NCBI RefSeq assembly: GCF_030376605.1
Contig: NZ_JARRAE010000001.1
Coordinates: forward strand, 124,001-188,000
DNA: 64,000 nt
Reading direction: 5' to 3'
Origin: Pseudochrobactrum sp. sp1633
Lineage (GTDB): Bacteria > Pseudomonadota > Alphaproteobacteria > Rhizobiales > Rhizobiaceae
The notes beneath the pieces are model-generated. The model made no database searches, was not told where the DNA came from, and saw only the letters and a program-made list of their open reading frames with translations. Positions 48,385 to 49,565 of this stretch are shown here, one piece after another. Position numbers and translations under genes: made by a program. How positions within the stretch are numbered: position 1 is the first letter of the stretch; the number at the start of each line of letters is the position of its first letter.

Positions 48385-48594
48385 CAGCATACAGCCTGCG
48401 GTTGGTGCGGAACAGTTTCTATCCGGAAATTGAGAGAAGGGCAGGATTACAAATTGTCAGCCACCGAAACTCTGACAGTTATATAGGTGCGTCCTGCTCA
48501 ATCTCAATATTGACCGGAATTGTACCAGATTTATGGAAATGACTTTCACAACGGCTTGTTCAAAAAATCATCTCACAATTTTGGAGAGTTTATA

Positions 48595-48609
48595 GAACAA
48601 AATATGAAC
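48595..48609 (-). promoter_or_regulatory. LexA-type SOS box (GAAC-N7-GAAC)
   Basis: GAAC at 48595-48598 and GAAC at 48606-48609 are separated by exactly 7 bases, which is the alphaproteobacterial LexA consensus (GTTC-N7-GTTC on the other strand). The adjoining - strand bases TATAAA could be a -10 for uvrA. The site is also about 75 bases before the -10 of the candidate RNA on the + strand. Confidence 0.75.
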
Positions 48610-48681
48610 CTAAGTCCAGTCAGATTTTTGTAGTAAGGACGAAAACAAGTTTTTGGCTAAGTTGGTACAATTGCGATGTAA

Positions 48682-48687
48682 TATAAT
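48682..48687 (+). promoter_or_regulatory. -10 element of the candidate structured RNA
   Basis: A perfect TATAAT that would start transcription at about 48692-48695, exactly where the hairpin array begins. No convincing -35 hexamer lies 16-18 bases upstream (AAGTTG or AGTTGG only), so an activator may be needed, or this may not be the promoter. Confidence 0.4.
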
Positions 48688-48691
48688 GTGA

Positions 48692-48903
48692 AGAGCTGTG
48701 AGTTGACGACAAGCGCTCTCGGGGGCACACTAAACCTATCTTCAGCACCAGCGGAGGAAAGGGTGAAAACCCCGAAAATGCTGAAGACGGGCGCAAGCCC
48801 AGACAGGAACTTATACTGTTCCGCGCGCAAACAGGAGGAATATAAGGATGAGTCCACCTGACTATGCATGACGGTATCACACCGTCGAAAACTAGTGTTT
48901 TTT
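48692..48903 (+). ncRNA. Candidate structured RNA, about 210 nt, family unknown
   Basis: Successive stems are: 48692-48696 with 48715-48719; a perfect 8-bp stem 48740-48747 with 48779-48786 that encloses GGGT-GAAA-ACCC; GGGC-GCAA-GCCC at 48789-48800; a 5-bp stem 48806-48810 with 48818-48822; CAGGAGG facing CCACCTG (48832-48838 with 48854-48860, one A-A mismatch); and a perfect 6-bp stem 48870-48875 with 48881-48886. T6 follows at 48898-48903. The two GNRA loops form only on the + strand, which sets the orientation. I could not match RNase P RNA, tmRNA, SRP RNA or 6S RNA, nor the riboswitches I know. Transcription is inferred. Confidence 0.45.
48848..48871 (+). other. Possible 7-codon leader peptide (MSPPDYA)
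   Basis: ATG-AGT-CCA-CCT-GAC-TAT-GCA-TGA lies 9 bases after a perfect AGGAGG. The peptide contains Pro-Pro-Asp, one of the strongest EF-P-dependent ribosome-stalling motifs. The TGA overlaps the first bases of the terminal hairpin (48870-48886), so a ribosome here would block that hairpin. It could also be chance. No downstream gene of normal length is in reach. Confidence 0.25.
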
Positions 48904-49565
48904 CTGAAGCTACCGGATTTCTATAACGGCTGTCTGCAATGATAGTACGAATAGAATGATCAATGAAAATATCTGCCGGTTTATCCGCTTCGTGCGATAA
49001 ACAACCATGATATTGGATTTGTTGAAAGTGGAATGGTTCTGGAAATTATAGCTGAATGCTATATCTGCGGTTCAGAGCCGACTATCACAAATGAAAGTTG
49101 AAGTGTGGTTTTACTGAAAGAGCAACAATCTATCATTTCTGCAGATACTCTGCCTTTAGGGCAGCCTTCTGATCGCTTGCCGGCGAATGACTACCGGCAA
49201 AATGGGATGAACCCCAATCAAAAGCCCTGCGCGCCAAAATAAGTGAGCGGCAGGGCATTTTTGTATGTTTTTATTTGTTTCATAAAACCTGTTTTTTCGG
49301 CAGATGAGCCGTTACCTATCTCCCCCCGCATTATGATGACGAAATAAACCTGCCGGTAATGGCGGGATGAAAGCGATTGCGCTGACAAAATTGCGATGCT
49401 TATATGCGCGCGGTGGTATCGGGGAGCATTAAAAATATCGCCACGGAGGGTTCTCATGGATCAAAACAAAGGAACAGAGTTTCTTTTGTTAAGCGTAATT
49501 TTGGACGGAGGCGGCTCCTGCTTGTTCTGAAATTGCGCTGATTGCAGAATATGGAAATAGTTTTA
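48904..49565. other. Gene-poor stretch between the candidate RNA and dmpA
   Basis: 662 bases with no supported gene. One + frame is open from 48967 to 49101 with only a late ATG at 49033 (22 codons, MVLEIIAECYICGSEPTITN...). After the TGA at 49099-49101 the same frame stays open to the TAA at 49239-49241. This could be a decayed gene or chance. Four hairpins follow between 49150 and 49256, the last a terminator. No promoter was found for dmpA. Confidence 0.5.
49224..49262 (+). terminator. Orphan terminator upstream of dmpA
   Basis: A perfect 7-bp stem GCCCTGC/GCAGGGC (49224-49230 with 49250-49256) is followed by ATTTTT. Just before it lie a perfect 7-bp stem (49177-49183 with 49194-49200) and a 5-bp stem (49150-49154 with 49160-49164). 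No upstream + strand gene explains it, so it may end a small RNA. Confidence 0.6.

Follow-up and report, generated by a model that had tools for sequence, protein, structure and literature searches.

The locus lies between a divergent uvrA gene and dmpA (Peptidase_S58), which in Pseudochrobactrum is found downstream on the same strand, within a window of 64,000 nt (the whole stretch of DNA that was analysed) from a genome of 3.9 Mb. A preliminary description had delimited here a gene-free stretch running as a separate structured RNA of ~210 nt from a TATAAT to a run of six T residues (T6), and the TATAAT, the T6 and the listed stems are all found in the sequence where it had placed them. That stretch, however, makes up only about the first third, from the 5′ end, of a predicted transcript of ~525 nt, as listed in Table 1. 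The promoter shared across the family, TTGACG-N17-CACACT, is located at 48703-48731, downstream of the TATAAT (48682-48687), and places the predicted start near 48738, while the family-wide intrinsic terminator follows ~320 nt beyond the T6. The TATAAT, as part of an invariant block, and the T6 are both kept in 7/7 Pseudochrobactrum genomes, whereas the promoter and terminator signals common to the wider family are located elsewhere. The T6 is separated from its nearest hairpin by 11 nt and is possibly a pause or a partial terminator. Nor is the stretch devoid of reading frames: it contains an open reading frame (ORF) of seven codons preceded by an AGGAGG Shine-Dalgarno (SD) word (48833-48871).

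Table 1. Features of the predicted RNA gene (positions are those of the window).
Feature	Position	Strand	Remarks
-35 element TTGACG of the family promoter	48703..48708	+	position checked in the sequence
-10 element CACACT	48726..48731	+	17 bp from the -35 element; mostly CANANT in relatives
Predicted RNA	48738..49262	+	start inferred from promoter, end from terminator; ~525 nt
5′ hairpin domain, arms TCTTCAGC/GCTGAAGA (48739-48746/48780-48787)	48739..48787	+	encloses GGGT-GAAA-ACCC (48761-48772)
Hairpin GGGC-GCAA-GCCC	48789..48800	+	loop variable in relatives
Hairpin GGAAC..GTTCC	48806..48822	+	from sequence, genus alignment and fold
Shine-Dalgarno AGGAGG	48833..48838	+	9 nt before the ATG
Mini-ORF ATG AGT CCA CCT GAC TAT GCA TGA (MSPPDYA)	48848..48871	+	7 codons
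Hairpin GACGGT/ACCGTC (48870-48875/48881-48886)	48870..48886	+	at the predicted leading edge of a ribosome arrested at codon 4
T6 run	48898..48903	+	kept in 7/7 Pseudochrobactrum genomes
3′ domain	49142..49265	+	covariance model R2: 36.7 bits, E 2.7e-9
3′-domain hairpin GCCGG..CCGGC	49179..49198	+	helix covaries in alignment A3
Hairpin GGG-ATGAA-CCC	49204..49214	+	read in the R2 match
Intrinsic terminator GCCCTGC..GCAGGGC, then ATTTTT	49224..49262	+	R2 match; helix covaries

Several further sequence blocks were observed around the promoter. The segment 48660-48702, immediately upstream of the family promoter, forms a second conserved block and includes the TATAAT (7/7 in the genus). A GATCACATTTT-like box, possibly a regulator site, was observed upstream of the promoter in many loci of relatives (L051, L060, L070 and others), starting ~33-35 nt before TTGAC, and GATCACA is absent near the corresponding place in the window. 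At 48595-48609 the window carries GAACAAAATATGAAC, a LexA-type box of the form seen in alphaproteobacteria (GAAC-N7-GAAC); it is present in 7/7 Pseudochrobactrum genomes, probably serves the divergent uvrA and may also influence the RNA.

Differential levels of conservation were observed for the different parts of the RNA within the genus. By blastn, 7/7 Pseudochrobactrum genomes contain the stretch of the preliminary description, whereas a further 54 relatives gave no match. Compared with the window, the genus shows a mean identity of 0.87 in 48738-48903, 0.78 in 48904-49141 and 0.90 in 49142-49265; outside the RNA the values are lower, at 0.53 in the spacer on the uvrA side (48428-48587) and 0.65 beyond the terminator (49266-49419). 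The middle of the RNA (48904-49141) is supported within the genus only. Part of it, 49040-49119, including GGCTGAATGCTATATCTGCGGTTCAGAGCC, shows genus identities of 0.88-0.95, with no counterpart recognised in other genera, and the segment 49360-49439, between the terminator and dmpA, shows 0.82-0.83. The Pseudochrobactrum form of the RNA also occurs in JAHREI010000002.1 (L216), a record titled Bacillus subtilis SK6B4 that looks mislabelled.

The sequence of the locus folds better than shuffled sequences, with a z score of -3.0 on the plus strand and -2.67 on the minus strand for the originally described stretch, and of -4.9 on the plus strand (0/100 shuffles as good) and -3.9 on the minus strand for 48738-49265. 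Two GNRA loops had been noted in the preliminary description; both are present here, but they are not a conserved feature, since the GAAA loop is unique to this genome and the GCAA loop is replaced by GAAA, GAGA, AUAA or AGAA in relatives. The outer arms of the 5′ hairpin domain are invariant across the seven genus genomes and therefore offer no covariation test. In the fold obtained from the genus alone, the SD and T6 regions are paired with each other. The degree of exposure (unpaired) is high for the start codon, at 0.80, and is 0.46 for the SD region and 0.40 for codons 2-6, against 0.38 for the whole RNA; the SD region and codons 2-6 are thus hardly more open than the RNA average, which counts against the mini-ORF arrest reading developed below. 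A CTTATA/TATAAG pseudoknot was considered and rejected, being broken in L005-L007, and AUAUAAGGAUGAG is presumably a CsrA-like GGA motif.

The distribution of the RNA was followed with three covariance models and one ORF pattern. The first model (R1), made from seven Pseudochrobactrum genomes, was too narrow, matching 9 of 247 genomes of the family at E ≤ 1, of which the four strong ones were Pseudochrobactrum. The wider family was recognised through a partial R1 match of 25 nt upstream of uvrA in another genus (GGAGGTAAAGGAGC-ATGAGTCCACC, E 0.052). Upstream of the divergent uvrA in L014, L016-L018 and L022, the arrangement GGAG..ATG-A(CGA)(TC)-CC(AG)-CC(GT)-GAC was read. The ORF pattern GGAGN{3,11}ATGANYCCNCCNGAC, with its reversed form as control, was found in 71/247 genomes of the family, one each, against 1/247 for the control; in 11/297 genomes of the order, against 3; and in 19/289 genomes of the class, with zero control matches among those listed. 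Most of the class matches are starts of longer genes and were taken as chance; the loci excluded as chance over all the pattern searches comprise L073, L074 (within a gene), L119-L121, L125 and most of L126-L142. Among the first 30 pattern loci, 26 have a divergent uvrA a few hundred bases away, and the remaining four are the chance matches L073 and L074 together with L057 and L059, which look real. Promoter signals were observed at nearly all of the loci collected, with the full TTGAC-N17..19-YANNNT upstream of the ORF in 74/81 loci (0.72 expected from shuffled sequence) and TTGAC within 330 nt upstream in 79/81 (15.4 expected from shuffled sequence); L109 was kept in the promoter count and dropped from the analysis of hairpin position.

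The second model (R2), covering the 3′ domain and trained on 38 relatives, none of them Pseudochrobactrum, has a single match in the window up to E 10, namely that at 49142-49265, whose strand and position in the order of elements agree with those in relatives. In the 247 genomes of the family (f1), R2 matched 121 at E ≤ 0.1 and 69 at E ≤ 1e-6, the other 126 lacking a match at the former threshold. Of the 52 matches weaker than 1e-6, many are probably chance. Twenty further regions were retrieved, eight of which belong to the 69. Among ten weaker matches read, L182, L183 and L186 carry ATG-NNN-CCN-CCN; L184, L185 and L187-L191 (E 4e-6 to 8e-4) have no such ORF and were taken as chance, L190 showing one GTG match that has no SD; L192 and L193 were left out of this reading. 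The third model (R3) has the ORF in its training set and is consequently no independent test of it. At E ≤ 0.01 it matched 25/288 genomes of the order, 19 of them read with M-x-P-P and five without, G472 being left out and L233 being the same locus as L115; in the class it matched 7/240 genomes, of which four look real (G000, G743, G699 and G593) and three do not. L133, L134 and L143 derive from the class pattern search. The RNA gene is widespread: Mesorhizobium-like, Brucella/Ochrobactrum and Pseudochrobactrum genomes have it next to uvrA, and other alphaproteobacterial families have it at different places.

The alignments of relatives reveal a common structure supported by compensatory changes across dozens of genomes. 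Alignment A3 comprises 38 of 81 loci, namely those in which the 3′ seed was recognised and the terminator helix detected, the others being unaligned; none is from Pseudochrobactrum, and the 3′ end of L093 was shortened by hand. In A3, 14 of 21 pairs show two-sided changes (85 cells against 23.1 expected) and 95.0% of cells are paired, the covariation score being reached by 0/500 shuffles and the count of further pair types by 17/500, with shuffles that, as in all covariation tests here, ignore relatedness. The full-length alignment A4 holds 29 of 30 chosen loci, L103 having been dropped as its promoter was missing in the set range, and shows two-sided changes in 23 of 39 pairs (103 cells against 29.2 expected, 0/500 shuffles); when the partners are slid by 1-3 columns, pairing drops from 96.9% to 33-44%. 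A further alignment, A5, consists of 64 loci. The A4 consensus, which has six helices, contains, in its 5′ part, a hairpin with an AGACGC-type loop, an unpaired segment from the SD to codon 5 and a hairpin directly after it; its 3′ part is composed of a stem that encloses a hairpin, of the GCCGG hairpin and of the terminator. In many relatives the ORF is followed by the words CAGAGAC...GTCGGAT, by the hairpin GCCGG..CCGGC and by an intrinsic terminator. The 5′ domain as a whole is variable across relatives. A hairpin with a nearly invariant six-base loop, AGACGC (or AGGCGC), which is a possible protein or RNA contact, was observed there in L051 and many other relatives and was not recognised in Pseudochrobactrum. 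The proposal of a structured functional RNA is therefore strongly supported, while its limits and its mini-ORF had been missed, and it is close to certain that a conserved RNA gene exists here; its predicted extent exceeds that first described.

The mini-ORF is the most constant element among the homologues. All 69 R2 homologues at E ≤ 1e-6 contain, downstream of TTGAC, an SD-like word followed by ATG-NNN-CCN-CCN-NNN. Codon 2 encodes threonine in 56, asparagine in 7, serine in 5 and isoleucine in 1; codon 3 is proline in 69/69 (CCA 59, CCG 10); codon 4 is proline in 69/69 (CCG 48, CCT 19, CCC 2, never CCA); and codon 5 is aspartate in 64 (GAC 59, GAT 5), asparagine in 2, glutamate in 2 and glutamine in 1. 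As the ORF pattern had first led to most of these 69 genomes, of which 36 also trained R2, the independent test consists of the 14 homologues in which the pattern had missed the ORF, and Pro-Pro is retained in 14/14 of these (one of them, G211, had a chance pattern match elsewhere, L109). Farther relatives read MTPPG, MNPPG and MKPPK and include a serine codon TCA instead of AGT; elsewhere in the class MTPPE occurs, as does MTPPD with GAT; and outside the family codon 3 is also seen as CCT. Beyond codon 5 there is little conservation, the product having 5 to 23 residues in 78/81 loci, and in Brucella daejeonensis (L209) and some Brucella/Ochrobactrum it consists of the five residues MSPPD followed by a stop. 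Coding-type conservation of M-x-P-P-x is accordingly close to certain. The preference for CCA at codon 3 occurs although many of these genomes look GC-rich; it exceeds free synonymous drift, indicating that constraints on the RNA also act.

The hairpin after the ORF begins at a nearly fixed distance. With starts searched between ORF nt 16 and 36, it begins at nt 25-27 in 66/80 loci and at nt 22 in 7 (counted by script), against 39/400 starts at nt 25-27 when the sequence after codon 5 was shuffled, and its mean stem score is 13.7 against 6.4 for shuffled sequence. The hairpin covaries, with 65 two-sided cells against 17.4 expected (0/500 shuffles), and 7/7 of its pairs varied, a count reached by 44/500 shuffles; in L133 and L134 a hairpin of at least 5 bp was not found after the ORF. 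When codon 4 occupies the P site, the leading edge of the ribosome lies ~15-16 nt beyond the first base of that codon, which corresponds to ORF nt 25-26 and matches the hairpin start. This coincidence of distance, kept although the stop codon moves freely, is our chief reason for proposing a ribosome halted at Pro4 as the functional state. The identity of codon 5 is also consistent with pausing. According to the portions of PMC4140641 consulted, PPD and PPN occur in E. coli only among the pausing PPX motifs, and PPD, PPN, PPE, PPG, PPQ and PPK all stand in a table of EF-P-dependent pauses, PPQ and PPK being found in both pausing and non-pausing genes; PPX motifs were tested between GFP codons 3 and 4, and pausing without EF-P was strong only at a small PPX subset, with context mattering. 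The codon 5 residues D, N, E, Q, G and K all fall within that pause table.

These observations, read from sequence alone, favour the interpretation, to which we assign a probability of about 0.55, that the locus is an autonomous, strongly promoted RNA gene (~330-530 nt) whose core would be a mini-ORF that arrests the ribosome almost at its start. The strong SD would load a ribosome onto the mini-ORF. After synthesising Met-Ser/Thr-Pro-Pro, this ribosome would stall while Pro4 occupies its P site and the Asp codon its A site, and its leading edge would abut the hairpin that starts ~25 nt into the ORF. EF-P would relieve this slow step, so the RNA would be ribosome-occupied or ribosome-free depending on EF-P activity or translation capacity, and the occupancy state might set the stability, folding or availability of a 3′ domain that would act in trans. 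We infer the transcription, translation, stalling, EF-P dependence and targets of the RNA. The broader proposal of a class-wide alphaproteobacterial ribosome-docking RNA, in which a hairpin-braced Met-x-Pro-Pro arrest within five codons would report EF-P activity or the supply of free ribosomes through a trans-acting 3′ domain, is offered tentatively, as we consider it less probable than not by a clear distance.

Among the other explanations, a cis-acting leader or attenuator of the downstream gene, which is dmpA in the window and ssb in many relatives, seems improbable to us; the ORF would then encode a leader peptide. This explanation would agree with the presence of ssb downstream in 18 of the 26 uvrA-linked loci (flanks up to 1.5 kb) and with the statement, in the portion of PMC5021804 consulted, that EF-P can prevent premature intrinsic termination on polyproline messages. 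Against it stand six relatives, identified from ten loci picked by the author, which instead of ssb have a racemase or the convergent clpP, dioxygenase, amidase, AMP-ligase or TauD, no two of one family and five of the six convergent, together with L016 and L017, where the interval from the RNA to ssb contains a second LexA-type box. In L115-L118, from other families, uvrA is absent from the flank. The promoter and terminator are thus kept while the neighbours change, which is best explained by an independent gene that would act in trans. The ~210-nt unit ending at the T6 is credited with even less: the invariance of the TATAAT block and T6 in the genus speaks for it, and a shorter transcript that stops at the T6 could exist alongside the long one in Pseudochrobactrum, but the promoter and terminator common to other genera are located elsewhere, the T6 stands apart from any adjacent hairpin and conservation extends to 49265, so we hold it to be very improbable.

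A trans-acting base-pairing small RNA (sRNA), in which the C-rich ACUCCACC would be the seed or an anti-Shine-Dalgarno arm and the ORF incidental, deserves more weight, although we still judge it unlikely. The upstream GGAG can pair with CUCC in members reading ACTCC, L133 and L134 read GGAGG...CCTCC, and the codon 3 bias toward CCA also speaks for this reading; yet members with AGTCC, AATCC or TCACC weaken or break it, the ATG is retained in 69/69, the block varies in the manner of codons (Asp GAC/GAT, Thr ACT/ACC/ACG, Ser AGT/TCA) and the segment from the SD to codon 5 is unpaired in the consensus fold of the family. The same SD, ATG and synonymous changes could instead denote a functional micropeptide for which the remaining RNA serves as messenger. 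That only residues 1-5 are conserved while the length changes freely, that the reading frame often merely runs through the hairpin and that the surrounding RNA structure is itself conserved leave this explanation little credit, and we regard it as quite improbable. Under the arrest reading, a natural and selected polyproline arrest site would be at hand if the mini-ORF stalls ribosomes, opening a direct approach to the sensing of EF-P or translation capacity by cells and adding a kind of riboregulator in which a trapped ribosome is a structural part; if the docking proposal holds, the stalled ribosome would be the ligand of the riboregulator.

Comparison with known families returned no counterpart, as the preliminary description had supposed. 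Rfam 15 gave 0 matches in the window at gathering score, a permissive scan of 48400-49550 (E up to 10) gave only three weak unrelated matches, and 31 loci from relatives, among them 25 with a member of the family, likewise gave 0 matches, so that a widespread RNA gene is absent from Rfam. Phage and plasmid records yielded no close copies. The open literature, in the texts covered (including PMC5596092, PMC3927594, PMC9751625, PMC12772402, PMC4845025 and PMC5082802, with supplementary tables outside this scope), gave no report at the locus, and the RNA gene is apparently undescribed; an unnamed candidate at the locus may stand in the sRNA survey lists of Mesorhizobium huakuii or Brucella. The Rhizobiales trans-sRNA families published in PMC3927594 are alike in being trans-encoded sRNA genes of the same bacterial order, and the main text of that paper, as far as it was consulted, does not mention uvrA, ssb or excinuclease.

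Like alpha_tmRNA (RF01849), which occurs in these bacteria too, the RNA is structured and contains a short reading frame, but it differs in having its own start codon and SD, and a tRNA-like part was not found; no tRNA or tmRNA was found in the window, and alpha_tmRNA was rejected for the locus, where neither a tRNA-like part nor an Rfam match is present, the tmRNA of this genome being elsewhere (C53:43273-43637). In arrest leader peptides such as TnaC and ErmCL, a short ORF stalls the ribosome and RNA structure follows. Like these and the EF-P-relieved polyproline pauses described in the consulted portions of PMC4140641, the RNA here has codons that seem selected for stalling, followed by RNA structure. 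Unlike TnaC and ErmCL, it has no constant regulated gene downstream on the same strand, its neighbours varying and several being convergent. SgrS-type dual-function sRNAs are structured and have a small ORF with an SD together with their own promoter and terminator. The RNA here shares the structure, the promoter and terminator signals of its own (full promoter in 74/81 loci; terminator helix covarying) and a short conserved ORF with an SD (69/69 homologues), and differs from the SgrS type in that its conserved product is only M-x-P-P-D, a pause motif, and in that its ORF is embedded in the structured RNA and has a hairpin at a set distance from it.
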